From the IMG/VR virus record IMGVR_UViG_3300032086_004844, positions 1-36,016 of that record: 36,016 nt of DNA. One strand, 5' to 3'. Below the pieces are notes generated by a model that saw only the letters and a list, made by a program, of their open reading frames with translations, searched no databases and was not told where the DNA came from. Shown piece by piece: positions 1 through 20,235 of the stretch (positions within the stretch are counted from its first letter, which is position 1; every line of letters begins with the position of its first letter). Made by a program: the position numbers and the translations under genes. The DNA is from a virus.

Positions 1-359
1 ACGGCGGCGATGGTGGTGAAGGTGGTGATGGTGGTGACGGCGGCGATGGAGGTGATGGTGGTGAAGGCGGCGATGACACTGTATGTCAAGGCTGCAATTG
101 CCCCGATGCTGGAAAATGCTGTGACAGCACCGACCCTTGCTGTGTAGAAGATAATGAAACTCCCGATCCGTGCTGCAATGATCCAAACCCTTGCTGCGGT
201 GTAGAGTGTTCACCAGACTCTGAAGGCTGCTCATATACCTGTAGAAATGGAGCTTGTGAAAAATCTGATCCTTGTTGTGGCTTAGATTGCTGCGATCCCG
301 GCGATCCTAATGATGGCGGAGGTTCTGATGATGGCGGAGGTCCTCTTATTCCAAGGTAA
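1..359 (+). CDS. 3' fragment of a Gly-Asp/Cys-rich repetitive protein
   Basis: The reading frame is open from base 3 to the TAA at 357-359; the start lies outside the window. The first 24 visible codons form eight GGD/GGE triplets. Then come about 95 residues rich in Cys, with CC-x-DPC type pairs and the module D-P-C-C-G...C...G-C...C...G-x-C that recurs in the next two genes. The tail is Gly/Asp-rich and ends PLIPR. No transmembrane segment or enzymatic motif is visible. The acidic Gly-rich tract looks like a flexible linker or stalk and the Cys modules like small disulfide- or metal-stabilised knots. The shared modules and same orientation make it the first of three related proteins. A surface or fibre role is inference; the family is not recognised. 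Confidence 0.8.
   Translation, partial: GGDGGEGGDGGDGGDGGDGGEGGDDTVCQGCNCPDAGKCCDSTDPCCVEDNETPDPCCNDPNPCCGVECSPDSEGCSYTCRNGACEKSDPCCGLDCCDPGDPNDGGGSDDGGGPLIPR
3..74 (+). repeat. GGD/GGE codon triplet repeat (8 units of 9 bp)
   Basis: Eight contiguous 9-bp units encode Gly-Gly-Asp (six) or Gly-Gly-Glu (two). Synonymous positions vary (GGC, GGT, GGA; GAT, GAC), so the peptide pattern appears conserved more than the DNA. The tract is markedly more GC-rich than the rest of the window and runs off the left edge, so its true length is unknown. Confidence 0.85.
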
Positions 360-398
360 AATATTTTATGATACAAAATCAAAAAGGATATAATTTAA

Positions 399-3300
399 AT
401 GTCTAATCATCAACCACCAGTTCCTACCAATCCTTGTGGAAACTCATGTACAGCAAAATGTGAGGATGGGAAATGCGTAGATCCTTGCCCAAATGGATGT
501 CCACCGTGTCATAGTTGTGGTGCTGATGGTTGTGATCCAGATTTCGATAGTAGTAAATGTGAAATATGTGATAGTAAAACCTGTCAGATTGTAAGCAGTT
601 GCAAAGAAGCAGATTGTGAAGAGTGTCAAAACGGCAGATGTAAAAGTAAATGCGATAGGTTAAAGTGCGAAGAATGCAAAGACGGTAGTTGTGTAGCTAA
701 AAAAGAGGAATGTAAAATATGCAAGAACGGTCGTTTAGCAGATAAATGTAACAGCGGATTGTGTGAGACTTGTACTGACGATAAATGTGAGAGTCTATGT
801 GATCCAAAGTCTTGCGAAGTGTGCGACAACGGAAGCTGTAAGTCGAGTTGTGATTGGAGATTTTGTCTAGAGTGCGTTGATGGTAAATGTGAGCGTACCT
901 GTGGTGGACCAGGAGATCTATGCAGGCGGTGTAATAAGGGTATCTGTGAGACTATTACTCCCGATCCAAAAAAATGTGAGACTTGCACACCAGACAAGGG
1001 AGTTCATAGTTTATGTGACATTGAAAACGGAGAAACTTGCTGCGATGGAACTTGCTGCGATAATTGTTCAAAATGTTTAGGGGGAAATAGCTCTAATAGT
1101 GCGACATGCTTCCCCAAAGCCTGGCCAGAGCGCTGTGAAACTTGCGATCCAGAAACAGGAGAAATCTCAGCCTGCGATGAGTCAAAATGTGAAGAATGTG
1201 TCCGTACGGGTACTAGAGAATATAGTTGCCAAAACAGGTGTAATAAAACGGTTACCGGCATAGATACTAGCTGTTATGAATGTGAAGACGGAGAGTGTAA
1301 GTTTAAATGCAAAACAGAAGAATGCGAAAGATGTACTGGTGCTACATTCAATGAGAATGGAAGGGCTACCTCGTTTGCATGTAAACAAGCATGTACAGGA
1401 GACTGTGCTCGATGCGTAGATGGGAACTGTCTACGGACAGGGTGTCCTGCGTGTCACACCTGCAATAGTAATGGTTGGGGCTACTCCTGTGACTATAATT
1501 GCAAACCAAAGTGTGAAGTTTGTAATGAGGATGGTCGTTGTGAAGATCCAGCCGCTGAGGCATGCAAGGACTCAGATCCAACAGGTTGTGGCTGCTATGG
1601 GCACAAGTCAGAAGGCGCTGCCTGCTTCTCATACACCCCCAGATGCTCTAATCCAAGATGGACACCTCAATGCATTAACGGCGCCCCTGCAAGTCCAGGA
1701 GAAGTCAACTGCGATACTTGTGAAATTGAACCTAGGGAAGAAAGACCACCACCTCGACCATGCAAATTTGACAACAGTTGTAGCCAATGTGTGGCTGGTA
1801 AATGCGAAGATGTGGCACTAGTTGGGCTTGAAAATTGTGAATCTCATTGTCCACTAGATGGAGCATATAACCCTGTTTTTCGTTGCTGTGACGCATGTTA
1901 TGATAAAGCAAGAGATCATGCAAAAGGCGGTAAAAATTGTAGTTATGAGCTTTTTTCACAAGATGATATTCGCCTCGATCCGTTTTCATGCACAAGATAT
2001 TTGTATCGTAAACGGGTATGTGACAACATAGTTTGTACTCATATACCATATGGTTGCGAAGAGGGAAAAGAGACAGAAGTGGGAGAGAGTGAGTTGGTAC
2101 GTGTTACTGATTGTTCTTGTGAAATAAATCCATGCTGTTCAACAGATCCTGAAACAGGAGAAGATGTAATCACAACACCAACATGCTGTGAAGCAAGCGA
2201 AGAATACGATGAGAAATGTTGCGAGCCATCCAATGTCGTTGATTTCCTATGCTGTCAAGATTCAGAACACGCATGCTGTTCCGACCCAAACAGTCCTGAG
2301 TGTACATGCGATGGAGTCATAGAATTTCAAAGCAATCCTTGTTGTATGTATCAAGATGATGAAACCGCATACAATTGTTGTGAAAACGGTACTAGTCAAA
2401 TATGCTGCGAAGGCTCAGCTTCTTATGATGCTGATTGTTGCGCAGGCAATGAATGCTGTGAATCTAGTCCCAACTATGACCCAAAATGCTGTAGTAAAAC
2501 AGAAGGTTTTAGTCAAGCTTGCTGTGACGATGAAAATTGTTGCAATGGAGGGAATGAATGTTGTGCATCTAGTCCCAACTACAACCCAATTTGTTGCCGA
2601 ACGTCAGATGCTTGGGATCCAATATGCTGTGACGATGCAAATTCTCCCTGTTGCAGGGGTGATGAGTGCTATCGGTACCGTAGTGGTAATTGTACACCAG
2701 TCTCAAATCCTTGCTGTGGTATTACGTGCGAACCAAGTTCAAATGGATGCGCAAGATCATGCTTTGAAGGAACATGTATACAAGACGATCCTTGCTGTGG
2801 AGACGAGGACCCTGCTTGCTGCCAACTGTCGCCCGATGGAAGTAAACCCCCATGCCCTTCAGATCCAGGTTCCGGTTGTAGTTATCAGTGCATAAATGGA
2901 GTATGCATTCCATTCAGCGACCCCTGTTGCCCAGATAGCGAAGACTATGACCCGTCGTGCTGCCCAAGAGATCCGTCTTATGATCCGTGCTGCTTTCTAG
3001 ATTGCGGTAATGATGCAGATGATTGCTCAACCTCTTGTGAAGCTACAGGAAGATTTACTGCTGAATGTGTAAAAGATGATCCTTGTTGCGGTTTTGACTG
3101 TCCAAAAAATGATGCAGACCCTGGCTGTTCAATGCGATGTGTAATCATTAATAATAAACCTTTTTGCGATTATGTCGACGCAGTATGTTGCCCATCTCAT
3201 GCAGACTACGATGAAGCATGTTGCGAACAAGGTCCTTGCTGCGCAGATAATTTTGATGCTACCTGCTGCCCAGATAGTGATACTTACGATAAAGTTTGCT

Positions 3301-4196
3301 GTGATGATCCAGATGACCCATGCTGTTCCTCTAATGACAATGACATATGCTGCCCAACATCACCATCCTACGACAAAGCCTGCTGTGAAGATCCGTCCGG
3401 ACCTTGCTGCATCACTGCTCAAGACTTTGATGCTAGTTGCTGTCCTGACGATCCATCTTATAATGCAGACTGCTGCCCTCCAAATGGTAAATGCTGTGTA
3501 CCAGATTGCGGCACTGACGAAAATGGCTGCTCCACTTCATGCAAAAATAACACTTGCGTAAAAGACGATCTTTGTTGTGGCGTTCCTTGCGATGATGTAG
3601 ATGGTTGTACCAGGTCTTGCGTAGATGGAGTATGTGTATATGACGATGCATGTTGTCAAAAAGAAGGAACATGCTGCACAGAAGATGATCCTATATGTTG
3701 TCAGATCGAAAAAAATGGCGGCTGTCCCAATGACGGCGATTGTCCACAGAGTTGCAAAAATGGATCTTGTAAAAAAGACGACCCTTGTTGCGATAATACA
3801 TGCCGCCAATGCGAAACCTGCATTCCTTCTGGTACCGGTAATTTTTATGATTGCTTTAATGAATGCAATACCTCTCAATGTGACCAAACCTGCTTGAATG
3901 GAGATTGCGTACAGCTTGATCCTTGTTGCGGGATAGATTGTCCTACCTTGTCTGATGGTTGTGCAAGAAGATGTGAAATGGGTGTATGTGTACAAGAAGA
4001 TCCTTGCTGTGCAGGTAATGCTCCAGCATGTTGCAGAAATCCAGGAGACGGTTGCTGTCAAGCAGAGGTACAGACGAAGTTAGCGGGCGGCAAGTGGCCA
4101 CCAACAGACGCCAAGGGTTGTCAGCTCAGATGTATTAGTGTCGGTAACGGTTCAGCTGAATTTGTAAAAGAAGACCCATGTTGTGGTGCAGAATAA
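399..4196 (+). CDS. Giant cysteine-rich repeat protein (1265 aa)
   Basis: The start ATG at 399 follows AAGGA (384-388) with 10-base spacing. By hand count about one residue in five is Cys. Two zones are visible. Residues 1 to about 560 carry repeats of the form C-x2-C-x2-G-x-C-x3-C, mostly with acidic or Lys spacers. From about 570 to the end, CC pairs dominate, in units such as YDxxCC, and in a longer module DPCCG-x-DC...GC-x3-C-x2-G-x-C-x2-DDPCC, shared with both neighbours. No signal peptide, membrane helix or catalytic motif is seen. The regular spacing suggests a string of tiny disulfide- or metal-stabilised domains forming an extended fibre. It is most likely a virion surface or host-contact protein because it sits among other repeat and propeller proteins. 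I cannot name the family. The coding call is secure; the role is inference. Confidence 0.9.
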   Translation: MSNHQPPVPTNPCGNSCTAKCEDGKCVDPCPNGCPPCHSCGADGCDPDFDSSKCEICDSKTCQIVSSCKEADCEECQNGRCKSKCDRLKCEECKDGSCVAKKEECKICKNGRLADKCNSGLCETCTDDKCESLCDPKSCEVCDNGSCKSSCDWRFCLECVDGKCERTCGGPGDLCRRCNKGICETITPDPKKCETCTPDKGVHSLCDIENGETCCDGTCCDNCSKCLGGNSSNSATCFPKAWPERCETCDPETGEISACDESKCEECVRTGTREYSCQNRCNKTVTGIDTSCYECEDGECKFKCKTEECERCTGATFNENGRATSFACKQACTGDCARCVDGNCLRTGCPACHTCNSNGWGYSCDYNCKPKCEVCNEDGRCEDPAAEACKDSDPTGCGCYGHKSEGAACFSYTPRCSNPRWTPQCINGAPASPGEVNCDTCEIEPREERPPPRPCKFDNSCSQCVAGKCEDVALVGLENCESHCPLDGAYNPVFRCCDACYDKARDHAKGGKNCSYELFSQDDIRLDPFSCTRYLYRKRVCDNIVCTHIPYGCEEGKETEVGESELVRVTDCSCEINPCCSTDPETGEDVITTPTCCEASEEYDEKCCEPSNVVDFLCCQDSEHACCSDPNSPECTCDGVIEFQSNPCCMYQDDETAYNCCENGTSQICCEGSASYDADCCAGNECCESSPNYDPKCCSKTEGFSQACCDDENCCNGGNECCASSPNYNPICCRTSDAWDPICCDDANSPCCRGDECYRYRSGNCTPVSNPCCGITCEPSSNGCARSCFEGTCIQDDPCCGDEDPACCQLSPDGSKPPCPSDPGSGCSYQCINGVCIPFSDPCCPDSEDYDPSCCPRDPSYDPCCFLDCGNDADDCSTSCEATGRFTAECVKDDPCCGFDCPKNDADPGCSMRCVIINNKPFCDYVDAVCCPSHADYDEACCEQGPCCADNFDATCCPDSDTYDKVCCDDPDDPCCSSNDNDICCPTSPSYDKACCEDPSGPCCITAQDFDASCCPDDPSYNADCCPPNGKCCVPDCGTDENGCSTSCKNNTCVKDDLCCGVPCDDVDGCTRSCVDGVCVYDDACCQKEGTCCTEDDPICCQIEKNGGCPNDGDCPQSCKNGSCKKDDPCCDNTCRQCETCIPSGTGNFYDCFNECNTSQCDQTCLNGDCVQLDPCCGIDCPTLSDGCARRCEMGVCVQEDPCCAGNAPACCRNPGDGCCQAEVQTKLAGGKWPPTDAKGCQLRCISVGNGSAEFVKEDPCCGAE

Positions 4197-4212
4197 CCAG
4201 GAGTTTTTAAAT

Positions 4213-7200
4213 ATGTCCAACCACTGCTGCGAGAGTGACGATCCAATATGTTGCCAGATAGGTACATGTCCCAATTCAGCTAATGGATGTCCACAAACTT
4301 GCATAGACGGAGCATGTAGGGAGATCTGTACTATAAATAATGCAGCTAATGACTGTACAAAAATGTGTATTAGCGGAAATTGTGTTAATGTAGATCCTTG
4401 CTGTGGTAATGCCGATCCTGAATGCTGTAAAAGTAATGTAAAATGCGATCCAATTACTACTAGAACGGTATTTGGTAATATACTATGTCCCACTCATTGC
4501 GAGAATGGTAAGTGTGTACTAGACGATGAATGTTGTGGTCGTTTTGACTGTTGCACATCCAATTTTTGTGCAGGAATAGAAATAGATGGATGCCCTACAA
4601 TATGCAAGGATAACGTGTGCGTCAAAGAACGTTGCTGCAGTAATGGTGATTTTGATAATTGTTGCGATAGTGTCGATCCTTGTTGTGAAATTGATAATAG
4701 TGGAGGCTGTCCTAGCATAAACGGATGTGCCCAAGAGTGTAAGAACGGGAAATGTGTTGTTAGTAATCCATGTTGTTTAGAAGATTCAGACTTAAAGGAA
4801 TGTTGTGAGGCCACAGACAAGAAATGTTGCCAGTTAGAGAAACTGGGTAGTGGTTGTGCTGGAAAAAATACATCACAGTGTACATACGATTGTGTTGACG
4901 GAGAGTGTATTCCTAACGACGATTGTTGCAATACTACTAATCCCACTTGCTGTTTTATTAATAAGAATTTCGGTGGTTGTGATAAGGGTCTTAAACAAAG
5001 TACTAAATATGACCCTGATATAAATTGTGATGTGTATATTTGCGTACCAGATTGTCCCGCTATCCCTCCGACAGAATGTGAAAAAACCTGTCGCACGATA
5101 ACAAAGGTTTACGAAAATGGCTGTCTTGTAGATATAGTGTGTGAAGATTGTGATTGTCCCGAAGCTCCACCCCCTATTACATGTCCTATTAATTGCACTG
5201 TTGTTCCTATTGATAATGGCTGTGTAATTGGCTATTATTGTGATTGTGATTGTCCTCTACCACCTCCTGTTGACTGTCCAGAGAACACATGCGATATAAT
5301 ACCCGTAAAAGTTAATGGCTGCATTGTTGGATACACATGCGAACCTTGCCCACCAGACGATTGTCCTCCACCACCTCCTGTTGACTGTGCAGAGGACACA
5401 TGCGATATAATACCCGTAAAAGTTAATGGCTGCATTGTTGGATACACATGCGAACCTTGTCCACCAGACGATTGTCCTCCACCACCTCCTGTTGAATGTG
5501 CAGAGGACACATGCAACATAACACCCGTAAAAGTTAATGGCTGCATTGTTGGACACAGATGCGAACCTTGTCCATCAGATTGCCCTCCAGAACCTCTTCC
5601 AATTTCCTGTAGTTCGCAATGCACAACCGAACCCATCAAAGACAGAAAATGCATAATTGGCTGGAAATGTGTCGATTGTAATAAATGTCCACCAGCTCCG
5701 CCAGTGCAATGTGCTCCAAACGCTAATATTTGTGACCACAAGCCAATATTAGATAATGATCAATGTGTCGTTGGCTTTGACTGCATTCCATGCGACGAGG
5801 ACTGCCCACCTGCACCACCTATAAATTGTCAAAATAGTTGTGGTAGTACTCCTAAAACAAACTCTAAAGGATGTATTACTGGTCACATTTGTCTACCGTG
5901 CGATGACCCAAAATGTCCAGAAGCTCCCCCAGTCAAATGTCCAGCAAATTCGTGCGGCTGGACTCCTATTCCAGATGAAAAAGGATGCGTAGTAGACTAT
6001 ACCTGCATACTATGCAAAGAAGACTGTGACCCTGCGCCACCTATAAATTGCCCAAATAGTTGTGGCAGTACACCACTGACCAACGATCAAGGGTGTGTAA
6101 TATCACACAAATGCAAACCTTGCGAGAATGATGATTGTCCACTAGTACCAATGCCTATGTGTCCACCTGACTCATGCGACATGTTGGTAGAATATGACGA
6201 CAAAAAATGTCCAGTTAAATACACATGCGTACCATGTAATAATGATTGTGACGATACCCCAGCAATCGACTGCCCGATTGACACCTGTGACATACAGCAA
6301 GTATTACAAAATGGCTGTGTAGTTGACTATGAGTGCATACCGTGCCAAAAACCCAAAGATTGTCCAAATATTCCAACACCTGTATGTGCCCCTAATTTCT
6401 CTTTTAAAACACTTTATGACAAAGATACAGGTTGTCCAATAGAACATACATGTATTCCTCTAGATACTGATTGTGAAATTGTTAAACAGGCAGATTGTCC
6501 AGAAAATACATGCGACACAATTCCTATTATTACTGATGATGGATGTACAGTAGGATTCGATTGCGTACCATGTGAATGTCCAAATGCTATTATCTCTTGT
6601 CCGGAAAACACTTGTGACATCATTACCGTAAAGGTTAATCATTGTGATACTTTTGTTTGTGAAGAATGCAAGTGTCCACAAACAGCACTACCCGCATGTA
6701 AATCCGATCAAGAATTAGTTACATCTCTAGATTCAGCTGGCTGTCCATACTATTATTGTGAAACTATATCTCCTAAGACTTTAAGTGGAGCTCAAATAAA
6801 TTCGTATCCAAACTATGGCGATAGTTATAGTGTTGGGGAGTCTATAGAAATACAATATTTCTCTGAGATTCCATTTGTTATCAATGATATGCGTATGCCA
6901 TATATAGCCATTATAACAGATAATAATGTTGTACTTAAAGCATATCCAGACTTTAATCACCCGAATAACAGTATAAACACAGAACCAGAATATAATATGA
7001 TAGTAGGAGATGATGGTAATATTATTAAAGCGTATAATACTCTTATCTTTTCTTATGTTATACAAGATGATGATGAGGCCATATCCTCACCATTTTCACT
7101 CTCAAGTTCATTTATAGACTATAATGGCTTTATTTTTGCTAATCTTGAAAATAAACGTATAGACCTTTCAAAGCCTGCCACAGAACCAGTTAGATTATAT

Positions 7201-8559
7201 CTTAGGAGCCCTAATACAAAATATATTAACGATAATACTTTGAGACTAAATGATGTGCTTATTTCTGCCAATAATAAAAAATATAGCACAGGAGAAATAT
7301 TTACGCTATCTATAGCATTAGATCAACCTGTTAGCATATTAACATTAGAAGATAAAAATAATGTTAAGCTTAATATTGAATATGGTAATGATGTTTATAC
7401 TTTTAACTTTGATATGACGCTAGATAGTATTGATAATACAGAAAATTCATCAATACTTACCTTTAAATATACAATTACTGATAAAGACTATTTTGACAGT
7501 AATAATAATTTTGTAGATGGTCATTACATAAGAATTAAAGATGTTTCTGGTTCAAGTTTGGTTACTAATCAAAATATTGTTACAGATACAATAGCGAATC
7601 TAGATATATCTCAATATTTACCTGCAGATAATTTATCATTTAATTCTACATCATATATCTCAAATCCTACAGAAGCTATAACTACAGATAATAACATATT
7701 GATCATTAATGACAATAATACTATTTCAATTATAGACGATGAATCTCTTAGCATGATTGGTCTAATTAATAATATTGATCAAAATATAACAGATGCTGTA
7801 TTTTTAGATAATGGTTTGATAGCCGTATCAACAGATGATAATACTGTTACAATCCTAGATAGCAAAAATGCTTCCAGAATAATAAATACTGTGAACCAAA
7901 TATCTGGTACTATTAATAGTTTAGATTCTAGTGGCGATAATCTAATCATTAATACAGATAAAGATATACTTAGTATAAATACATATGAATTAAAACCAGA
8001 TATTTATACTGTTCAAAAACTTAATCCTACTAGTAATATAGATATTAGTTTTGTAGATAAGCCAAATAATGTACTTTATGTCATTGATAGTGTAGCAAAA
8101 GAAATTGTTGCTATCAATATTAATAATGGATCAGCCGTTAACTCATTTAAAACCAATAATAATATTACTGATATTGTCGTCAAAGATGATACGATCTATG
8201 CGGTAACTGATCAAAATCAATTTATATCATACAACACAGACACTGGAGAAATCTTAGATTCATTATTTATAGATAGAGGAAATAATAGTTTGACTATTGC
8301 TGGAGATGTTATTTTAATAGGCAATGATATAACTAATACGATTAGAAAGTATGATACATCAACAAATACTATAACTGATACTATCGGCAGTGGAGGAATT
8401 AGGCTAATAAAAACTTTATTTATAGGCAATATAATCTATACCGTTAATAAAGATAGTAATACTATTATCAAAATTAATATAAATACTAACCAAGTAGAAA
8501 ATTATTGTCCACCCCCATTCTTTGCTACAGTATTACCACCTATACCGGAAATATCATAA
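4213..8559 (+). CDS. Modular Cys-rich protein with C-terminal beta-propeller (1448 aa)
   Basis: I chose ATG 4213 over the in-frame ATG 4183: CAGGAG (4198-4203) sits 9 bases upstream, and the product then begins MSNH like the preceding gene. Residues 1-270 repeat the CC/DPCC modules of the two upstream genes. Residues about 275-849 hold about 16 units of roughly 35 residues, with Cys-Pro-rich starts (CPxxPPxxC), a central C, then GC-x-V-x-Y-x-C-x-x-C, vaguely antistasin-like in Cys spacing. Cys then stops abruptly at C849. A Cys-free, Asn/Asp/Ile-rich half follows: about 850-1140 beta-rich unknown domains, then about 1150-1440 repeated short blades (for example NTVTILDS, NTIRKYDT) typical of YVTN-like beta-propellers. 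It ends with a CPPPFF tail. Composition shifts sharply at the junction, suggesting a fusion. It is likely a fibre or adhesin with a stalk and a binding head. Confidence 0.9.
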   Translation: MSNHCCESDDPICCQIGTCPNSANGCPQTCIDGACREICTINNAANDCTKMCISGNCVNVDPCCGNADPECCKSNVKCDPITTRTVFGNILCPTHCENGKCVLDDECCGRFDCCTSNFCAGIEIDGCPTICKDNVCVKERCCSNGDFDNCCDSVDPCCEIDNSGGCPSINGCAQECKNGKCVVSNPCCLEDSDLKECCEATDKKCCQLEKLGSGCAGKNTSQCTYDCVDGECIPNDDCCNTTNPTCCFINKNFGGCDKGLKQSTKYDPDINCDVYICVPDCPAIPPTECEKTCRTITKVYENGCLVDIVCEDCDCPEAPPPITCPINCTVVPIDNGCVIGYYCDCDCPLPPPVDCPENTCDIIPVKVNGCIVGYTCEPCPPDDCPPPPPVDCAEDTCDIIPVKVNGCIVGYTCEPCPPDDCPPPPPVECAEDTCNITPVKVNGCIVGHRCEPCPSDCPPEPLPISCSSQCTTEPIKDRKCIIGWKCVDCNKCPPAPPVQCAPNANICDHKPILDNDQCVVGFDCIPCDEDCPPAPPINCQNSCGSTPKTNSKGCITGHICLPCDDPKCPEAPPVKCPANSCGWTPIPDEKGCVVDYTCILCKEDCDPAPPINCPNSCGSTPLTNDQGCVISHKCKPCENDDCPLVPMPMCPPDSCDMLVEYDDKKCPVKYTCVPCNNDCDDTPAIDCPIDTCDIQQVLQNGCVVDYECIPCQKPKDCPNIPTPVCAPNFSFKTLYDKDTGCPIEHTCIPLDTDCEIVKQADCPENTCDTIPIITDDGCTVGFDCVPCECPNAIISCPENTCDIITVKVNHCDTFVCEECKCPQTALPACKSDQELVTSLDSAGCPYYYCETISPKTLSGAQINSYPNYGDSYSVGESIEIQYFSEIPFVINDMRMPYIAIITDNNVVLKAYPDFNHPNNSINTEPEYNMIVGDDGNIIKAYNTLIFSYVIQDDDEAISSPFSLSSSFIDYNGFIFANLENKRIDLSKPATEPVRLYLRSPNTKYINDNTLRLNDVLISANNKKYSTGEIFTLSIALDQPVSILTLEDKNNVKLNIEYGNDVYTFNFDMTLDSIDNTENSSILTFKYTITDKDYFDSNNNFVDGHYIRIKDVSGSSLVTNQNIVTDTIANLDISQYLPADNLSFNSTSYISNPTEAITTDNNILIINDNNTISIIDDESLSMIGLINNIDQNITDAVFLDNGLIAVSTDDNTVTILDSKNASRIINTVNQISGTINSLDSSGDNLIINTDKDILSINTYELKPDIYTVQKLNPTSNIDISFVDKPNNVLYVIDSVAKEIVAININNGSAVNSFKTNNNITDIVVKDDTIYAVTDQNQFISYNTDTGEILDSLFIDRGNNSLTIAGDVILIGNDITNTIRKYDTSTNTITDTIGSGGIRLIKTLFIGNIIYTVNKDSNTIIKININTNQVENYCPPPFFATVLPPIPEIS
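5248..5580 (+). repeat. Three near-identical 111-bp tandem repeats in the Cys-Pro module
   Basis: Copies start at 5248, 5359 and 5470, each 111 bp (37 codons), in frame. Each copy encodes DC-P-x-PPPV-[DE]C ... TC[DN]I ... VKVNGCIVG ... CEPCP. Copies 1 and 2 differ at only a few bases, and copy 3 has a handful more changes. Flanking units of the same module are far more diverged, so this is a recent local duplication. Confidence 0.9.
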
Positions 8560-9434
8560 TGATTAACCCCAACAACGAACAATTACATAAAACCACATTT
8601 AATAATCTAATTGTAAGAGACAAAGAATTTATTGATAAAAAAATGTCTTATTCAAATTATAACAATATCCAATTTATTAATTGCTCTTTTCAAAATTGTG
8701 ATATTAGTAATACCAACTGGAATAATTGTTTAATCTATAACGGTTCAATAGATAGTACTAGTTTTTCTAATAGTTCTTTATCCAAAATCACTATGAATAA
8801 TATGGATTTGACCAATTCCAACCTCAACAACTGTAACATAGATAATTTAAGAATAGACAATAGCACACTAGATGATGTAGATTTTCTTTCTTCACAAATT
8901 AAACAATCTATATTAAATAAAAATGCTCTTAAAATGTGTTCTTTTAATTATGCCAATATATTAGATTTTTATGTAAATGAGTCATCATTATCAGAATGCT
9001 TATTTGAAAGGCTGGTATCATCGAATATCTTCCTTCACATCTGCAACATGGAAAACACAAGCTTTTTGCAATCTGTTTTAAAACAAATCTCCATATGTGA
9101 TTGCAATTTAATGTTAATTGATTTTAATCAAAGTGATTTAAGTAATGGCCTGATCTGTCAATCTAATAATAATTACAATATTGTTGACACCAATTTTTCT
9201 GAGTCGAATATTAGTAATCTAAGACTAGACAGCACCATCATGCAAAACTGTAAACTTAATCATTTAAACTTTAAAAATACATTCATAAATAATATAGATA
9301 TTAGTAATTCTGAAATAAAATATAGTAATTTAGCTACTATTAATATTGATCAATTAAATATGTGTAATAGTGTATCTATAAAAGGAAGCATCCCACCAAC
9401 CGGCAAAACTTTTGGAGACTTGTGTAAAACATAA
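8559..9434 (+). CDS. Pentapeptide-repeat-like beta-helix protein (291 aa)
   Basis: ATG 8559 shares its A with the stop of the preceding gene (TAATG), and I prefer it to the in-frame ATG 8505 buried in that gene. From about residue 15 onward the protein is a continuous series of five-residue steps with a central Leu, Ile, Phe or Met and Asn/Ser/Asp/Cys flanks (for example CSFQN CDISN TNWNN). This is the signature of the right-handed quadrilateral beta-helix of pentapeptide repeats. The Asn content is very high. The last 25 residues break the pattern. No enzymatic motif or signal is visible. Its translational coupling to the propeller protein and its place in the repeat-protein block suggest a fibre or decoration component. 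Fold assignment is fairly safe; function is not known. Confidence 0.85.
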   Translation: MINPNNEQLHKTTFNNLIVRDKEFIDKKMSYSNYNNIQFINCSFQNCDISNTNWNNCLIYNGSIDSTSFSNSSLSKITMNNMDLTNSNLNNCNIDNLRIDNSTLDDVDFLSSQIKQSILNKNALKMCSFNYANILDFYVNESSLSECLFERLVSSNIFLHICNMENTSFLQSVLKQISICDCNLMLIDFNQSDLSNGLICQSNNNYNIVDTNFSESNISNLRLDSTIMQNCKLNHLNFKNTFINNIDISNSEIKYSNLATINIDQLNMCNSVSIKGSIPPTGKTFGDLCKT

Positions 9435-9557: not shown

Positions 9558-9600
9558 ATGTGTTTAATAAAAAACCGTCTTAAATTAAGAATTGAGAAAT

Positions 9601-10467
9601 ATGGTTAATTTTAATGTAAATCCAAGTAAAACTAATAAGACACCAAAGATAATAAAACCAGAAAATGCTATAAGTTGGTCAAATATTGTTTATGGATACT
9701 ATAACACTAATGGGAATGCTAAAGCTGGATATAGTAGTTTATACGATGCCAAAAACGGTCAAAATATTATTATTTCTCAAACTGTGTATGACCCAACTTT
9801 AGGATATTATGTAGAACCTAATAATAGTAATTTAGCATTTCAATTCTATTATACTTTTCCAGAAAAATATGATGGCATTAAACCAGTATCTCTAATAGAC
9901 ATACCTCAAGGAAACTATCACCAATTTCCTGTATGGGACGGAAATGACAAAACATGGCTTTTTAGTAATGTTGTTAGACATTTGATTTTAGTTATAGGTC
10001 CTATCGGGGTCAGTGTGGATCCAAATGCTGAAAATGATATTGTAACAACAACACTAAAATTTTCTGAAGATTTTATACTATTAAATGATCCAGATCTATA
10101 TGCGTCAACAAATACAACACATACACATAATTCTATAACGTCAAATGGTGCTTATGCTATATTGTATTTTCCACAATTAATAAACAGATTAACCATAGAA
10201 AACTCACATCTAGAACCATATGCTGACGAAACCTATACATATCAAATATTAGGTTCTCTTATTCAGTTTGGAACTATAAATGATTTAGCTATATTTGGAT
10301 TAGATACTAACGTTAGAGAATTAAAACAGATTACCTTTAATATAGACAATAATACCTATGACCACGAACTAATAACAAACCCTGTACCGTTCGAAATTCC
10401 AGAATTTAATTACTACGATTACGATAGTAGAAAACTAGTAAAATTCAATATATTTGAAAAAGAATAG
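9601..10467 (+). CDS. Hypothetical protein (288 aa), virion-region
   Basis: The ORF could begin at TTG 9592, but ATG 9601 (MVNFNVNPSK) is the better start; the ribosome site is weak (purine-rich TTGAGAAAT). The product has no signal peptide or membrane helix. It is rich in Asn, Tyr, Thr and Ile, with alternating hydrophobic strands and a THTHNS loop near residue 175, so it is probably a beta-sandwich or similar. It ends 5 bases before the RCC1 protein, which shares the Asn/Tyr-rich style. I do not recognise a family. Context suggests a structural or fibre-associated protein. Confidence 0.75.
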   Translation: MVNFNVNPSKTNKTPKIIKPENAISWSNIVYGYYNTNGNAKAGYSSLYDAKNGQNIIISQTVYDPTLGYYVEPNNSNLAFQFYYTFPEKYDGIKPVSLIDIPQGNYHQFPVWDGNDKTWLFSNVVRHLILVIGPIGVSVDPNAENDIVTTTLKFSEDFILLNDPDLYASTNTTHTHNSITSNGAYAILYFPQLINRLTIENSHLEPYADETYTYQILGSLIQFGTINDLAIFGLDTNVRELKQITFNIDNNTYDHELITNPVPFEIPEFNYYDYDSRKLVKFNIFEKE

Positions 10468-10472
10468 CAATT

Positions 10473-11969
10473 ATGACAATATTCAATCAAAAAGAAAGTC
10501 AATACTCCCATACTAAAAACAAGTATGGAGAAGATATTGTAAAAGTACGAGTAAGAAATCATAAAATACAAGTTGTTTTAAATGGTAACAATCCTCAAAT
10601 AAGCATAAACTGGGGAGATGGCAATACTGACATAGCTAATGAGTCAAAACTATATGAGCATTCATATAAGAATTATGGAGTTTATGGACTCAGGATACAA
10701 GGTTCTTTTGATACGGACGGCTCTATTACAGTTTACAACAATGAATTAGCTGATGATCCTATACAAGCTATAGGCAACCTAAACAAAAAACTATATCACA
10801 CTAGGCCAACAAGCATATCTCATTACCAAGGTATTGTATTTCAGAATATTAAAGATGAATACATAGAACCAGAACCATCAACCGGAACGAACACAGACAC
10901 CGATACCTACAGAAAACTATACTTCTGGGGGAGTAACAGTAACATGCAACTTGGCAACAATACAACACAAGCTGCAAAAATCTGGCAATCAGTAACTGCT
11001 GCACATAGTCATGCCTTAGCGATAGATACTGACGGAAATCTTTACGCTTGGGGGAAAAACACTGTCGGTCAATTAGGCGACGGAACAACAGAAAACCGCA
11101 CTACTCTAACAAGCATATCTCATCCATCCGGCCAGGCCTGGCAATCAGTAACCGCTGGATTTCATCATACATTAGCGATAGACATTGACGGAAATCTTTA
11201 CGCTTGGGGGATTGACCATTACGGACAACCTGGCGCCCGCCCAACAGGCTTATATAGCACTACGCCAACAAGCATATCTCATCCATCCGGCAAAGCCTGG
11301 CAATCAGTAACCGCTGGAGGTGATTATACATTAGCAATAGACACTGACGGCAATCTGTACGGTTGGGGGCGTAACGCTGCCGGTCAAGTAGGCGACGGAA
11401 CAACAGAAGCGCCTGCTACGCTAACAAGAATATCTCATCCACTCGGGAAAACCTGGCAGTCAGTATCAGCTGGGGTATATCGCTATAGCTTGGCCATAGA
11501 CACTGCCGGAAACCTATACTCTTGGGGGCAAGACGTCATAACAAGTTTAAGTCGCACTACGCCAATGCTAATAGATCATCCACTTGGGAAAACCTGGAAG
11601 TCAATAACTGCTGCAACTAATCATGCCTTAGCGATAGATACTGACGATAATCTGTACGGTTGGGGAAGCAACTTCTACGGACAACTTGGCTACCAAAGTA
11701 GCGACACCACAGGAACCAATATATATATACCAAGAAGGATATCTCATCCATCCGGCCAGGCCTGGCAATCAGTAGCCGCTGGATTTTATCATACATTAGC
11801 GATAGATGCTGACGGAAATCTTTACGCTGGGGGGCAAAACACTGTCGGTCAATTAGGCGACGGAACAACAGAAAACCGCACTATGCCAACAAGCATATCT
11901 CATCCATCTAACAAAACCTGGCAGTCAATAACTGCTGCAACTAGTCATTCTATTGCTATAAGTAGTTAA
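10473..11969 (+). CDS. PKD-like plus RCC1 seven-bladed propeller protein (498 aa)
   Basis: Residues about 20-80 resemble a PKD-like/surface beta-sandwich domain: ISINWGDG at 44-50, then an EHSYKNYGVYGLRI strand. Residues about 148-498 are RCC1-type repeats. I count seven WQS[VI]xA-x-HxLAIDxDGNLYxWG-x-N-x-x-GQLGDGT units, and the first strand LYFWGSN would close the ring with the last. RCC1 propellers bind proteins or sugars. In phage structural regions such modules usually occur in fibres or adhesins. Blade 6 has LYAGGQ where the others have the LYxWG tryptophan. Several blades are almost identical at DNA level, so the array is recent or actively recombining. The start is ATG 10473, 5 bases after the previous stop; no strong ribosome site. 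Confidence 0.88.
   Translation: MTIFNQKESQYSHTKNKYGEDIVKVRVRNHKIQVVLNGNNPQISINWGDGNTDIANESKLYEHSYKNYGVYGLRIQGSFDTDGSITVYNNELADDPIQAIGNLNKKLYHTRPTSISHYQGIVFQNIKDEYIEPEPSTGTNTDTDTYRKLYFWGSNSNMQLGNNTTQAAKIWQSVTAAHSHALAIDTDGNLYAWGKNTVGQLGDGTTENRTTLTSISHPSGQAWQSVTAGFHHTLAIDIDGNLYAWGIDHYGQPGARPTGLYSTTPTSISHPSGKAWQSVTAGGDYTLAIDTDGNLYGWGRNAAGQVGDGTTEAPATLTRISHPLGKTWQSVSAGVYRYSLAIDTAGNLYSWGQDVITSLSRTTPMLIDHPLGKTWKSITAATNHALAIDTDDNLYGWGSNFYGQLGYQSSDTTGTNIYIPRRISHPSGQAWQSVAAGFYHTLAIDADGNLYAGGQNTVGQLGDGTTENRTMPTSISHPSNKTWQSITAATSHSIAISS
11041..11883 (+). repeat. Near-identical RCC1 blade DNA copies
   Basis: Bases 11041-11103 and 11821-11883 align over 63 bp with two mismatches, exactly 780 bp (260 codons) apart. 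The stretch just before the second copy (from about 11741) is in turn almost identical to 11121-11210. The segment around 11741-11883 thus looks like a mosaic of two earlier blades, as expected from in-frame unequal exchange or gene conversion. Confidence 0.8.
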
Positions 11970-12241: not shown

Positions 12242-12586
12242 ATGAGTGAACCAAATCCAAATACATTAGGTCATTTTTTTGAAAACTTTACCACCTCTAT
12301 GTTTAGTGTGGTAATAGCTCTTATTGGATTCTGGACAACTTTTGTAAAAAATCTAGTCAACAGAAAAGAAGTAGAAGAAATGATAGAGTCCTGTTCACGC
12401 TCTAGTCAATATTCTAAAGATAGACAATTTATTATGGAAAGATTAGATTCTAGTAAAGAATCTCAAATAATTATATCTAAAGCATTAGCTAAAAATACAG
12501 AGGTAATGACGGATCTCAAAATTCATATAGCAACTCTTGCTAAAACACTGGAAAATTTAGAGGCCAGAATAGAGAAAAGTCTATAA
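12242..12586 (+). CDS. Small membrane protein with coiled coil (114 aa)
   Basis: It begins directly after the previous TAA. Residues about 18-37 (SMFSVVIALIGFWTTFV) form one membrane helix. The rest is a charged helix with heptad-like spacing to the C-terminus, ending LENLEARIEKSL. This architecture of one N-terminal helix and a long coiled coil fits phage holin-, spanin- or tail-associated membrane proteins, but none can be assigned from sequence. It is followed by a 54-bp gap with a candidate promoter motif. Coding is likely because of the coupling and composition. Confidence 0.7.
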   Translation: MSEPNPNTLGHFFENFTTSMFSVVIALIGFWTTFVKNLVNRKEVEEMIESCSRSSQYSKDRQFIMERLDSSKESQIIISKALAKNTEVMTDLKIHIATLAKTLENLEARIEKSL

Positions 12587-12596
12587 TTAGCCATAT

Positions 12597-12617
12597 GGTG
12601 TATTATACAATATATTG
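12597..12617 (+). promoter_or_regulatory. Candidate promoter motif GGTGTAT (copy B) with CAATATATTG palindrome
   Basis: GGTGTAT at 12597-12603 is followed, 7 bases later, by TATATT (12611-12616). This places a TATA-like hexamer at the same spacing as copy C (27794). The perfect 10-bp palindrome CAATATATTG spans 12608-12617. It lies in a 54-bp gap upstream of the 65-aa gene, which has a strong ribosome site. A promoter, an operator, or both are possible. Confidence 0.35.
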
Positions 12618-12640
12618 CACTTTTATTAAAAGGAGAAAAT

Positions 12641-12838
12641 ATGGCTGTTGATGTTGCTATTTCAGATGGTGGTCATGTAAGAAATGCCAGAATATTGGTA
12701 ATGTGTCTACCTACCGGCCCTGTAGCTCTCGCAAGAGATGATAGACAAGAAATTGCTGGCCCTACAGATGCAGAATTATTAGCAAAATATGGTGATAGAT
12801 TTGACAATCCTAGATATTACACTGGCGATACAGCATAG
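12641..12838 (+). CDS. Hypothetical small soluble protein (65 aa)
   Basis: ATG 12641 follows a strong ribosome site (AAAAGGAGAAAAT), stronger than those of its neighbours, so the product may be abundant. The sequence begins MAVDVAISDGGH and has a compact beta-like first half and an acidic/polar tail with NPRYYTGD. There are no membrane helices and one Cys. It follows the candidate promoter at 12597 and may be the first gene of a transcript. No family is recognised; a small virion or decoration protein is one possibility. Confidence 0.7.
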   Translation: MAVDVAISDGGHVRNARILVMCLPTGPVALARDDRQEIAGPTDAELLAKYGDRFDNPRYYTGDTA

Positions 12839-12840
12839 TC

Positions 12841-13326
12841 ATGAGAAAACCCGGCTATAAAACAAGCGAATTTTGGTTTACAGTAGTTAGTTTTGTTTTT
12901 AGCGGACTTTTCCTATTGGGAGTAATTAAAGAACCAGATACTAAAGACGATTTGATAGATACATTTACACACGTTACTGAAAGTGTTATTTTGTTGGCTG
13001 GACAAGCGATGGTATTGGCTAGATATATAAGAAAAAGAAAAGAAGAAAAAATAGAATACGAAAAAACAAAACAGAAAGAACAAGACAATATTCGGAAAGA
13101 GCTAGAAGATTATGTTGGTGTAGACAAAACCTATAGTAAGATTAATATAAATAGAGCCAGTATTGGAGAGCTAATACAACTTCCACATATCGGTCCAGTT
13201 ATAGCTGAAAAAATTATACAATACCGGGAACAGCATGGAGAATTTACTTACTCTATAGATCTAATGAAAATTAATGGAATAGGTGAGTCAGTATTCAAAG
13301 ATATAGATAAATACATTGAAATATGA
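12841..13326 (+). CDS. Membrane protein with ComEA-like helix-hairpin-helix domain (161 aa)
   Basis: Residues 11-29 (FWFTVVSFVFSGLFLLGVI) and about 46-63 (ESVILLAGQAMVLARYI) look like two membrane helices, separated by an acidic loop. A Lys/Glu-rich helix (64-90) leads to a ComEA-type HhH domain at 99-161: ININRASIGELIQLPHIGP, then REQHGEF and the second hairpin INGIGES. In ComEA this domain binds double-stranded DNA outside the membrane during competence. Here it would be a membrane-tethered DNA-binding module in a phage-like operon. The start is 2 bases after the previous stop. A role in DNA passage across the envelope or in holin-like function is inference. The domain call is strong. Confidence 0.85.
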   Translation: MRKPGYKTSEFWFTVVSFVFSGLFLLGVIKEPDTKDDLIDTFTHVTESVILLAGQAMVLARYIRKRKEEKIEYEKTKQKEQDNIRKELEDYVGVDKTYSKININRASIGELIQLPHIGPVIAEKIIQYREQHGEFTYSIDLMKINGIGESVFKDIDKYIEI

Positions 13327-13335
13327 GGCAATCAA

Positions 13336-13803
13336 ATGAGTGAATCAACCAAAGACTTAATCAGAAGAGAAATAGAAAACCTAATCAATGAAACCAAAAA
13401 ATCTGTTACAGAGGTTAAGACCTTCGCTCTTGCAGAAGTATGGAAAATATTACAGCTATTAACATCTGCAACTATTCAGCTTATAGAAAATCTTGGCAAT
13501 GATCTTAGTAGCCCAGAGAAAAAAGCGTTAGCTTTAGAGTTAATAGGTAAATTTTATGACGAAATTTTCAAATATGTAGATGTGCCTTGGGTTCCAACGC
13601 CAATAGAAGTTGTATTACATGGCTATCTAAAAAGTGTCTTAATGATGCTTGTTAGTTCAGCAATAGACGCTATGGTAACAACATTTAGACAAATAGGTTT
13701 CTTCAACAAGAAAGAAGAAGCTGTCATAGAAACACAATCTAATCAAAACAAAATCATATCAGATTTCATCAATGACTTTAATAATATAGTGAGGGAAAAA
13801 TGA
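13336..13803 (+). CDS. Hypothetical helical protein (155 aa)
   Basis: ATG 13336 lies 9 bases after the previous stop, with GAGGC just upstream. The protein is nearly all helical: an amphipathic charged N-terminus, then a conspicuous central motif SPEKKALALELIGKFYDEI followed by a hydrophobic stretch around 98-120 that may contact membrane. The C-terminus is polar. It overlaps the next gene by ATGA. The neighbours are membrane proteins, so a membrane-associated partner role is plausible. I do not recognise a named family. Confidence 0.75.
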   Translation: MSESTKDLIRREIENLINETKKSVTEVKTFALAEVWKILQLLTSATIQLIENLGNDLSSPEKKALALELIGKFYDEIFKYVDVPWVPTPIEVVLHGYLKSVLMMLVSSAIDAMVTTFRQIGFFNKKEEAVIETQSNQNKIISDFINDFNNIVREK

Positions 13804-14180
13804 ATTTTACTCAGAGTTTCGAAGAATTTAGTGCTAGTTTGGGACCGATGGATCTTGCTCTATATGCTGGTGCTGGTATTATATTGTGGGTATTATTTAA
13901 GGATAAATTAAGTCCTGTTCAAACGGCAGTTATGGATATCGTCAATAGACTTAAAAGTTCTGTAGGAGGAATTTCTGATACCGTAACTATCAAGGTTCCA
14001 GATGTGGTTAAATCTTCACCAAGAGTACAACAAGATCTATTTTTTGATTTAGTCGTATCATGGAAACAGACCAGAGATCTAGCAGTAAAAAGCGGTTGCT
14101 CAAAAGCTGTAGAAGTTGCTGACCAAATGTTCCCTTATCTAAGTCCAACAGTTTGTGGTGAGGAAAAAGATGCAGAATAA
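13800..14180 (+). CDS. Hypothetical membrane protein (126 aa)
   Basis: The ATG is within the ATGA overlap with the preceding stop, typical of translational coupling. Residues about 17-33 (MDLALYAGAGIILWVLF) form one membrane helix; the remainder is soluble with two Cys (SGCSKAV and PTVCGE). The end overlaps the next gene. No family is recognised. The membrane topology and operon position group it with 12242-14673. Confidence 0.75.
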   Translation: MNFTQSFEEFSASLGPMDLALYAGAGIILWVLFKDKLSPVQTAVMDIVNRLKSSVGGISDTVTIKVPDVVKSSPRVQQDLFFDLVVSWKQTRDLAVKSGCSKAVEVADQMFPYLSPTVCGEEKDAE

Positions 14181-14673
14181 ATTATTACTAACTATCGGAG
14201 TGATTTTATTAGCTATAGGTATATTTAAGCCAGATCTTAGTATGGTTAATAAAATATCACCAACCCCGGCCTGCTCCATTGAAACTTATGTAACAGACGC
14301 CCCTTCTGATACAAATCTATTAGAAAAAGCAAGAACAGTCACAGATATAGTTAAATCTTCTGACGATTCTACAAGATCAAGTGATTGCCTAAAATTATCA
14401 GCACTTTATGCAGACATGGCTACTCTGGTTGAGTTGGATTCAGAGGATAAAGTGATAACCGATACTGCTTCCATAAGAGAGGCTAATAGCATAGCTGGTA
14501 AAATGCTAAGACTTAATATTAAGGATAAGTATGAAGGTCTAGCAGAAGCCGCAAAAGATTTAATGGTTAGCACTATTGGCGATGACGATGTAGTACTTGA
14601 CGAAGAATTAAGAGATAGTTCTGTTGACGCCTTTAGAGCATTAAGCTGGGCTTTTTATGAGGGTAGTAAATAA
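14170..14673 (+). CDS. Hypothetical exported or membrane-anchored protein (167 aa)
   Basis: The frame is open from GTG 14155, but ATG 14170 is preferred: GGTGAGG sits about 7 bases upstream and the product then starts with a clean signal anchor (MQNKLLLTIGVILLAIGIF). The mature part has two Cys (PACSIE and SDCLKL) and is helical and acidic. It overlaps the upstream gene by 11 bases and its stop overlaps the next start (TAATG). It lies directly upstream of a papain-like protease, so it could be a partner or substrate; that is inference only. Confidence 0.75.
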   Translation: MQNKLLLTIGVILLAIGIFKPDLSMVNKISPTPACSIETYVTDAPSDTNLLEKARTVTDIVKSSDDSTRSSDCLKLSALYADMATLVELDSEDKVITDTASIREANSIAGKMLRLNIKDKYEGLAEAAKDLMVSTIGDDDVVLDEELRDSSVDAFRALSWAFYEGSK

Positions 14674-15599
14674 TGCCAAGAATGAGTCCTAATGATCTGT
14701 ACAACGAATACCGCAAAGGATTTAGTGGTTGCCTGTGGGAAGAACACGTTTTTGAAGAACTATTAGCGACTAGTAAATATGCTTATTTTACAGACGGAGC
14801 TAAAAAAATAAAGAATAGTGGAAAAGGTAAATTATCAACACCTTTTAAATCAGTATTGAAATTTGATAAGAATGCTTATATCGAACGACAAACCACAGGC
14901 GATTGTGTGTCCCATGCTACTCGCAACGGCTGCGATGTAACCAGAGCAGTAGAAATTGATATTAAGGGAGATAAAGAAAGTTGGATCGCTAGGGGAGCAA
15001 CAGAAGCAATTTATGGTTGTCGTGGTCATGGCGGTCAAGGAATGAGTTGCAGTCGTGCTGCTACATTTGTTAGTCAAACTGGTGGTATTTTAGTTCGTAA
15101 AAATTATCCCGGTGTTGCAGACTTCAGTAAATATAATGGCAGCATGGGAGCCAAATGGGGCGGTCGTGGATTACCAGATAAAGTAATAGATAAAGCTGAT
15201 GATCATCAAATAAGAACAGTTTCTTTAATACGAACAGTAGAAGAAGCACGAGATGCACTTGCTAATGGATATGGATTAAGTGTGTGTTCTAGTTATGGAT
15301 TTTCTAATAAAAGAGACTCTAAGGGATTTGCTCGTAAATCTGGCAGCTGGGCACATGCGATGGCCTGGACTGCCTGTGATGACACTAATGGGGAACCAGC
15401 ATTTATGGTTCAAAATAGCTGGGGCAAATGGAATGATGGTGGTCATCCAGAATGGGGCCCAATTCCAGATGGAGCATTTTTGATTCATGCAGACGTTGCA
15501 GAAGGTATGTTGAGGCAAAATGGAGCTTATGCCTTTAGTGATTTTAACGGATTTCCACCTCAAAAATTACCAGATTATGGGTTCGGAGAATACCTATGA
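14673..15599 (+). CDS. Papain-like cysteine protease (308 aa)
   Basis: The catalytic signature of the C1A/papain fold is visible: oxyanion Gln and Cys in RQTTGDCVSHA (Q73, C78), the His in GSWAHAMAW (H228), and Asn in QNSWGKWN (N248) followed by the Gly-rich NSWG loop and a FLIHAD strand. There is no signal peptide, although the N-terminal 60 residues could be a propeptide. The start overlaps the preceding stop and GAGGGT upstream gives a good ribosome site. Such proteases in phages may process virion proteins or attack host protein coats; this one is next to a secreted serine protease. The fold assignment is confident; the substrate is unknown. Confidence 0.88.
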   Translation: MPRMSPNDLYNEYRKGFSGCLWEEHVFEELLATSKYAYFTDGAKKIKNSGKGKLSTPFKSVLKFDKNAYIERQTTGDCVSHATRNGCDVTRAVEIDIKGDKESWIARGATEAIYGCRGHGGQGMSCSRAATFVSQTGGILVRKNYPGVADFSKYNGSMGAKWGGRGLPDKVIDKADDHQIRTVSLIRTVEEARDALANGYGLSVCSSYGFSNKRDSKGFARKSGSWAHAMAWTACDDTNGEPAFMVQNSWGKWNDGGHPEWGPIPDGAFLIHADVAEGMLRQNGAYAFSDFNGFPPQKLPDYGFGEYL

Positions 15600-15760
15600 A
15601 ATTATTAGACAGAATTGCGCTCAACAGTTTGATAAAAACTATTACAAATTTTATATTAGCAATACTCAAAATCTTTGCTCCTCAAAAAACAAGCACCATT
15701 GATAAAGGCAAAAGGAAGCGACCAATATTAGATGCCATAAGGAGGTGGACTAAACCATGA
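15596..15760 (+). CDS. 54-aa mini-gene between the two protease genes
   Basis: ATG 15596 overlaps the protease stop (ATGA) and its TGA (15758-15760) overlaps the next ATG (15757). Coupling on both sides is strong evidence of a real gene. The product is basic, with a hydrophobic amphipathic N-terminal half (about 8-28, with IAL, FILAILKIF) and a Lys/Arg-rich C-terminal half (GKRKRP, IRRW). It could be a membrane-active or nucleic-acid-binding peptide. The coding sequence also contains the ribosome site of the serine protease. Confidence 0.65.
   Translation: MKLLDRIALNSLIKTITNFILAILKIFAPQKTSTIDKGKRKRPILDAIRRWTKP
15738..15747 (+). promoter_or_regulatory. Near-perfect Shine-Dalgarno TAAGGAGGTG
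   Basis: Ten consecutive bases complementary to the usual bacterial 16S 3' end, 9 bases before ATG 15757. It is the strongest ribosome site I see in the window and lies inside the 54-aa mini-gene, so the serine protease can be translated independently of coupling. Confidence 0.85.
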
Positions 15761-16608
15761 ATATTAAAACTTTACTATTTACTGTACTAGCATTAATAGT
15801 AGTATCTTTTCAATCAGTATGTGCGGAAGATCCAGTAAATATTAGCACATATTTACAGGATATCAGCGTTACAATAAAAACTGAACGAGGATCTGGTAGT
15901 GGCGTGATTTTTAGTCGAGAAATCAAATCAGATGACGGTAAGAAGAATGTAAATTTTGTATGGACAGCAGCCCATGTTTTAGAGGGTATTCGTAGTGTGA
16001 GAAGTATTCTTGATATAGAAGGCAAAACCCTAAAGCGTCCAGTGTTCAAAGATGTGCAAATTGTAAAAAAATTGATAGAGCAGGGCATTACAGTAGGTGA
16101 ACTTTCTATGGATGCTGTGGTTGTTAAGTATAGTGATGCAACAGACGGCGAAGATCTTGCTTTACTAATGGTTAAGAAATTTAACTTTGTAGATGTATCT
16201 GCTAAATTTCATAAAGACGAAAGCGATACTGGATTGCCTTTAGGTACACAGTTGTATCATGTCGGTTCTTTACTTGGTGAAAGTGGAGCCAATAGTATGA
16301 CAACTGGGATTATGAGTCAAGTTGGTAGAATGCTTGCTTTAAATAGTAGCACCAAGGTATTATTCGATCAAACAACAGTGACTGCATTTCCAGGGTCATC
16401 TGGAGGTGGTGTATTCTTAACTGATGGCCAGTATATTGGTATGCTTGTTCGTGGTGCCGGAGAAACTTTCAATCTAATTGTACCTATTAGACGAATTAAC
16501 AAATGGGCAAAATCAGAAAATATCATGTGGGCGCTTGATCCATCAATAGAAGCTCCGTCACTAGAAGAAATTAATAAATTACCAAAAGAGAAAATGGGCA
16601 AATTATGA
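15757..16608 (+). CDS. Secreted trypsin-like serine protease (283 aa)
   Basis: The N-terminus is a classical signal peptide (MNIKTLLFTVLALIVVSFQS) with probable cleavage after VCA (residue 23). The trypsin-like triad is clear: H73 in WTAAHVLEG, D133 in DGEDLALLMV, S215 in FPGSSGGGVF. The length fits a single protease domain without a PDZ domain, similar to Trypsin_2 or DegP catalytic cores. The protein should act in the periplasm or outside the cell. Translation is driven by the strong ribosome site at 15738. It forms a tight group with the cysteine protease upstream and a small secreted protein downstream (ATGA overlap). Roles could be envelope damage at lysis, processing of surface proteins or anti-host activity; none is shown by the sequence. 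Confidence 0.9.
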   Translation: MNIKTLLFTVLALIVVSFQSVCAEDPVNISTYLQDISVTIKTERGSGSGVIFSREIKSDDGKKNVNFVWTAAHVLEGIRSVRSILDIEGKTLKRPVFKDVQIVKKLIEQGITVGELSMDAVVVKYSDATDGEDLALLMVKKFNFVDVSAKFHKDESDTGLPLGTQLYHVGSLLGESGANSMTTGIMSQVGRMLALNSSTKVLFDQTTVTAFPGSSGGGVFLTDGQYIGMLVRGAGETFNLIVPIRRINKWAKSENIMWALDPSIEAPSLEEINKLPKEKMGKL

Positions 16609-18533: not shown

Positions 18534-18539
18534 ATTATT

Positions 18540-19994: not shown

Positions 19995-20235
19995 TATTTT
20001 AGTATGGTGTGTTTATGGTATATTCGTAGGATCAATTGCAAAAAGCATTGTGCCAGGAGAAGAGAATTTTGGTTTTGTGAAAACTGTATGCTTAGGAGTA
20101 TGTGGCTCTTATATCGGTGGAGCCTTATTATATATGCTCGGCCAAGTTTCTACCGTTGAGCCTGCTGGTATATTTATGGGTATTTTAGGATCAGCTTTGT
20201 CGATAGTTCTTTATAACAAGTTAAATAACAAATAA
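19987..20235 (+). CDS. GlsB/YeaQ/YmgE-like small membrane protein (82 aa)
   Basis: I chose ATG 19987 over the in-frame ATG 19978 because AGGGG (19973-19977) has proper 9-base spacing only for the former. The product has three hydrophobic stretches and the family pattern WxxxGxxxGxxAKxxxPG, then LGxxGxxxGGxL, then a Gly-rich third helix (FMGILGSALSIVL), matching the transglycosylase-associated YeaQ/YmgE/GlsB family. Cellular members are stress-induced inner-membrane proteins of poorly known function. In phages such three-helix proteins may act in membrane perturbation. It overlaps the previous gene by 8 bases. Confidence 0.75.
   Translation: MFSILVWCVYGIFVGSIAKSIVPGEENFGFVKTVCLGVCGSYIGGALLYMLGQVSTVEPAGIFMGILGSALSIVLYNKLNNK

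Follow-up and report, generated by a model that had tools for sequence, protein, structure and literature searches.

Giant cysteine-module proteins, candidate fibres or adhesins, in a variable slot of an uncultured large-phage lineage

Cysteine-rich genes at the left end of the window

The window, that is the whole stretch of DNA that was analysed, is an IMG/VR virus record of 36,016 bases and represents a linear fragment. As the original prediction had it, three consecutive plus-strand open reading frames, A, B, and C, are present at its left end. They share the window with other genes of the same variable slot, a conserved core, and a second variable slot.

3–359, +: ORF A, 118 aa, 5'-truncated at the contig end; a Gly/Asp-rich stretch, then a Cys-rich region with one DPCCG module
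399–4196, +: ORF B, 1265 aa
399–2078, +: residues 1–560 of B, 4-Cys units of the form CxxCx[DN]GxCxxxC
2079–4193, +: residues 561–1265 of B, DPCCG six-Cys modules spaced by CC-x(5-9)-CC ladders
4213–8559, +: ORF C, 1448 aa from ATG 4213, or 1458 aa from GTG 4183
4213–5052, +: N-terminus of C, five DPCCG-type modules and a CC ladder
5053–6759, +: tandem array of C, ~14 six-Cys modules of the form CPxxPPxxC-x3/4-C-x9/10-GC-x5-C-x2-C
6760–8556, +: C-terminal region of C, Cys-poor, beta-rich, propeller-like by weak matches
8559–9434, +: pentapeptide-repeat protein downstream of C
9592–10467, +: protein without family assignment, in the variable slot of A–C
10473–11969, +: RCC1-type beta-propeller protein in the A–C slot, with a PHROG tail-protein family among its matches
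12242–15599, +: conserved core, which bounds the slot and serves as lineage marker; its last gene is 14673–15599
16863–18533, +: second variable slot, FGE-sulfatase-like domain and a (TP)n stretch

The ATG at 4213 of ORF C is preceded by an AGGAG ribosome site, the GTG at 4183 being a longer alternative start. Cysteines account for 19 of the 118 residues of A, 236 of the 1265 residues of B, and 147 residues within the first 870 of C. Taken over the Cys-rich parts of the three ORFs, this corresponds to 402 Cys per about 2,250 residues (17.8%, ~1 in 5.6), which bears out the claimed span of more than 2,000 residues and falls short of the claimed one Cys in five. The description of three giant Cys-rich proteins is largely right but has to be narrowed for C, which is Cys-rich only up to about residue 870. 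The C-terminal ~590 residues of C contain a single Cys; C is therefore a chimera and not Cys-rich throughout. In agreement with the earlier claim, no signal peptide is apparent at the N-termini of B and C, as judged by reading and not with a predictor.

Four architectures are found in these ORFs: 4-Cys units, DPCCG modules with CC ladders, tandem 6-Cys modules, and a Cys-poor, beta-rich C-terminus. The sharing of a DPCCG...C...GC...C...GxC module by A, B, and C is real. Fourteen copies (one in A, eight in B, and five in C) align with all six Cys invariant, and a profile, built from the same copies that it scores, gives 69, 467, and 265 bits for A, B, and C, far above the maxima of composition-preserving shuffles (39, 125, and 46). 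The tandem modules of C, each with its six Cys at regular spacing and a first loop rich in Pro, reach 834 bits with their own profile, against a shuffle maximum of 49. CC pairs, which had been named as a further common feature, are confined to certain regions: they are enriched in B 560–1265 (46 versus 28 expected; shuffle maximum 41), but not above chance over the whole of B (49 versus 43.6 expected), depleted in B 1–560 (3 versus 16 expected), and absent from C 270–860 (0 versus 15 expected). The units of B 1–560 contain four Cys per about 18 residues, with CxxC, and only three CxC motifs occur in all 1265 residues of B. The modules in the arrays of A, B, and C are small, mostly have an even number of Cys, and contain little besides Cys that could form a hydrophobic core.

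For four tandem modules of C, AlphaFold2 run on the single sequence predicts one beta-hairpin in each (mean pLDDT 66, pTM 0.24). Foldseek with this model gave no significant match; EGF and TNF-receptor repeats were among the weak hits at the top of its list. The C-terminal region of C is modeled as all-beta at low confidence (pLDDT 49), and its matches are to PQQ_2 (4e-5, under the curated cut-off) and to a designed propeller (E 0.03).

Pfam contains no family for A, for B, or for the Cys-rich portion of C, and none of the three ORFs has a match in PHROGs (fibre families included), in the PDB, or in a phage collection; no known family with another function emerged from these searches. Profiles of the DPCCG and tandem modules found nothing in the PDB. 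Peptide patterns and tblastn with B and C revealed no direct relatives in IMG/VR or the phage collection, and within the literature available for searching there was no paper on such Cys-module phage proteins. The single match of a first DPCCG DNA pattern (L002) was spurious, as it does not share the frame of the ordinary tail gene there. BLAST without composition correction linked B with L013/L015/L017 and C with L038–L048, which we discounted as composition. We left out Cys-rich ORFs that read Pro/Gly repeats in a wrong frame (L097 +, L115 +, L118 +).

The A–C slot and Cys-rich proteins in related phages

With the conserved gene at 14673–15599 as query, we retrieved 396 IMG/VR stretches, the best 80 of them at 77–94% identity. 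Placed by this gene, the window is a member of an uncultured large-phage lineage, with contigs of up to 238 kb and from many aquatic metagenomes; no cultured phage was found close to it. The syntenic core comprises g12242, g12841, g13336, g13800, g14155, the papain-like gene, g16605, g19608, and g19978, after which come genes for dCMP deaminase, class II RNR, PhoH, HNH, and UvsX. The variable parts of the lineage genomes contain sugar genes and the two slots.

A–C occupy the slot upstream of g12841, where the relatives have long variable genes. L054 and L044 have tail-fibre-like genes there (PHROG matches with best E of 2.6e-7 and 8.4e-10). Proteins with GHTH repeats, which are known from tail fibres, occupy 9 of 52 loci, the majority being near-identical copies of one phage. 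In many relatives the slot neighbours have no assigned function.

When IMG/VR was scanned with a pattern of the 4-Cys unit, seven contigs gave eight stretches, and three of these contigs also have the conserved neighbour gene. In one contig of 152 kb (G051), this neighbour gene is 74% identical to that of the window. The slot of G051 holds a 931-aa protein with 194 Cys and a Pro stalk, a 486-aa protein with 82 Cys and a CC ladder, and a 1049-aa protein in which Cys, (PSPP)n, and (TP)n stretches end in BNR-like repeats, a layout like that of ORF C. Part of the 931-aa gene recurs identically in a second contig (G052). Smith–Waterman alignment against shuffles (60 per comparison) identified two homologues of B 1–520, at 94011–96803 of G051 and at 20768–21862 of G053. 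The first, the 931-aa protein, scores 534, versus a mean of 261 and a maximum of 300 for full shuffles and a mean of 416 and a maximum of 487 for shuffles with the Cys positions fixed. At the sequence level, B 1–520 is thus shown to be homologous to this protein beyond the Cys pattern. The second scores 327 (full-shuffle maximum 234, Cys-fixed maximum 302) and is a 365-aa protein with 81 Cys from a different phage of 43.5 kb. Its gene lies on the same strand as the portal, major head protein, and tail-fibre genes of that phage and is followed by large proteins of unknown function. Since neither the DPCCG nor the CPxxPP profile outscores shuffles in the initial set of relatives, we limit the claim of homology to B 1–520. 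No close orthologue of B was found, and the comparison suggests that A–C are rapidly diversifying.

Other relatives encode different Cys-rich proteins. Those of G015 (83909–84850 and 86500–87342) lie in a late or variable region, those of G011 (18327–25220) precede a terminase-like gene as well as a putative tape measure, and an FGE-like and Cys protein of G007 directly adjoins a 4753-aa putative tape measure, both tape measures being labelled from length and position. Giant Cys-rich proteins with 207 and 100 Cys are also seen in large phages that lack the marker gene (G054, L170/L176; G055, L174). In L097 (5806–10824, −) and L115 (11795–13072, −), huge PPPP/TTTP stalks are followed by a granulin-like CCxGxCC ladder.

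In the Cys-rich orthologues of L013/L015/L017, 88–97% of the Cys columns are kept at 40–71% identity, with many synonymous TGT/TGC switches and dN < dS. This pattern of substitutions shows that selection keeps the Cys in that family, B being outside the measurement. A C-terminal [LIVFYM][LIV]P-stop signature occurs in 7 of 22 Cys-rich ORFs compared with 15 of 2169 others (Fisher p about 6e-10, for a pattern set after inspection and ORFs that are not all independent). It is common to Cys-rich and some tail-module proteins in G011, G015, G006, G003, G023, and G014; its exact form is absent from A, B, and C.

The product of the second variable slot of the window is likely another fibre protein. 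The corresponding region of L013/L015/L017 also holds a 1000-aa Cys-rich protein. Between the two slots, the gene at 14673–15599 is weakly papain-like and that at 15757–16608 is trypsin-like, and both adjoin small membrane-type genes; they are possible lysis proteins fitting a protein-rich wall. Lookalikes of the papain-like gene with an inserted CGCCPP..DPCC..ECCG module are found in L035 (9480–11525), L044 (13753–15861), and L077 (12184–13785).

Redox genes and host

The original prediction also stated that no disulfide-isomerase gene is visible. This is correct for the window, where no thioredoxin-type gene is recognised among the annotated genes, but not for the lineage: 14 of 30 relatives encode thioredoxin-fold proteins (PF00085), and Thioredoxin_7 is present in 12 of 18, nine of them above the curated cut-off. 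The proteins inspected begin with a hydrophobic stretch, mostly contain CxxC, and are apparently exported. Examples are found at G014 16878–17345 (L083), G011 167992–168462, G001 20–298, and in L127–L137. In G001, which shares 94% identity with the window in the conserved gene, the thioredoxin-fold protein lies at the contig edge. The missing gene in the window may be an effect of the 36-kb fragment size. A search for Erv/ALR oxidases gave no match, and neither did its control searches.

DUF1559 (PF07596) is present in 8 of 30 relatives and was not found in the window. Prepilin-like phage genes of this family are located at G014 20815–21771 and G011 163891–164853, with two copies in G030. DUF1559 is apparently restricted to Planctomycetes (PMC10632474), and its plasmid matches were all planctomycete. 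MAG contigs that contain the conserved neighbour gene are labelled as other than planctomycete. DUF1559 gives a hint that the lineage, and perhaps the window phage with it, infects planctomycete bacteria; if so, it offers a route to phages of planctomycetes. One planctomycete envelope is described as consisting of Pro/Cys-rich, disulfide-stabilised protein (PMC3035269). A highly speculative extension would have the Pro/Cys-rich phage proteins engage such a disulfide-bonded envelope by mimicry or by thiol–disulfide exchange, that is, by covalent attachment, with the exported thioredoxin-fold protein of the phage acting on the same wall at lysis.

Candidate function and comparison with known systems

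We consider it probable, at roughly 0.6, that A, B, and C are virion-associated fibre or adhesin (or decoration) proteins from a hypervariable tail-fibre slot of an uncultured large-phage lineage. Late-oxidised fibres or adhesins, as originally proposed, are the best-supported class, through slot synteny, the G053 operon, and the Cys-rich genes in late modules of relatives. A–C lie in the slot that relatives use for tail-fibre genes, and a homologue of B is found within a structural operon; PHROG, on the other side, gives A–C no match to a known fibre family. From this context we infer virion presence, a disulfide-bonded state, and receptor binding. A–C would be synthesised in reduced form inside the host and assembled onto the phage particle before oxidation, and disulfides would form within modules upon lysis into oxic water. 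The oxidised arrays could then act as stiff, protease-resistant stalks, with ORF C carrying a Cys-poor, beta-propeller-like head.

A point against the fibre reading is that 236 Cys in one protein of the cytoplasm may lead to misfolding or metal binding. Metal binding, also among the original proposals, is the main rival, though an unlikely one. The Cys would hold Zn, Fe, or Cu, the 4-Cys units would be Zn(Cys)4 sites, and the fibre would be stabilised without oxidation, or metal carried. The dense CxxC units of B 1–560 with their few hydrophobic residues fit this proposal, which is compatible with a reducing cytoplasm. The scarcity of CxC in B does not, and the six-Cys modules, CC ladders, and 14-fold predicted-hairpin array resemble disulfide-rich extracellular repeats, EGF and TNF-receptor repeats appearing among the weak, non-significant top fold matches. 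That A–C are instead non-virion proteins, released or shown on the infected cell for anti-defence, inhibition, or envelope mimicry, is distinctly unlikely. Their modules would be protease-inhibitor or growth-factor-like minidomains, as antistasin- and granulin-like spacings and the Pro/Cys-rich disulfide-bonded protein envelope of a planctomycete (PMC3035269) could suggest, but the inhibitor families have no Pfam match, no signal peptide is apparent by reading in B or C (the start of A is missing), and the slot and operon provide a structural context.

Within the particle, A–C could be internal scaffold or ejected proteins, as the large proteins of unknown function after the Cys gene of G053 might indicate. 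We regard this as quite improbable, because Pro-rich stalks, propeller-like domains, pentapeptide and RCC1 neighbours, and hypervariability are more typical of surface fibres. It is scarcely credible that the ORFs lack biological importance, as hypermutable low-complexity sequence or a contig-end assembly chimera. The fragment is linear, A is cut, and misassembly is possible at repeats, but the ORFs of 1265 and 1448 aa are unbroken, G051 has the same slot and a B-like protein, and one orthologous set of the lineage shows purifying selection on Cys.

The usual picture of phage fibres is one of trimeric coils, helices, and beta folds that assemble in the reducing cytoplasm. Fibre-slot proteins with hundreds of cysteines raise the question of how and when they are oxidised or metallated. 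If the fibre reading is true, disulfide-rich modular architecture would reach phage particles too, and the modules could serve as stable binding scaffolds.

Among known Cys-rich systems, metallothioneins share with A–C a high Cys and low hydrophobic content; they are short and dominated by CxC, whereas A–C are much larger, have few CxC, and give no match. The CXCXC repeat (PF03128) is matched in the relative G011 (24075–25220; score 17.5 against a cut-off of 15), but has no match in A–C. Antistasin/TIL domains have a similar C-x3/4-C-x9/10-GC-x3/5-C spacing and a hairpin per module, a hairpin that in C is a prediction of moderate confidence with no significant fold match; a Pfam or PDB profile match is absent, the C modules have an extra Pro-rich first loop, and about 14 of them stand in tandem, in a phage. 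Granulin/epithelin (PF00396) is resembled by the CC ladders of B, spaced by 5–9 residues, and to a clearer degree by those of L097, L115, and the 486-aa protein of G051, but the ladder spacing is irregular and there is no PF00396 match. Phage tail-fibre cassettes resemble the locus in the variable slot beside conserved genes, in the fibre-type N-termini in the slot of relatives, and in the stalk and head layout of C and the 1049-aa protein of G051; they differ in that the body of A–C consists of Cys minidomains and not of the usual fibre folds. The slot logic is already known, and what is new is the building material and the lineage.
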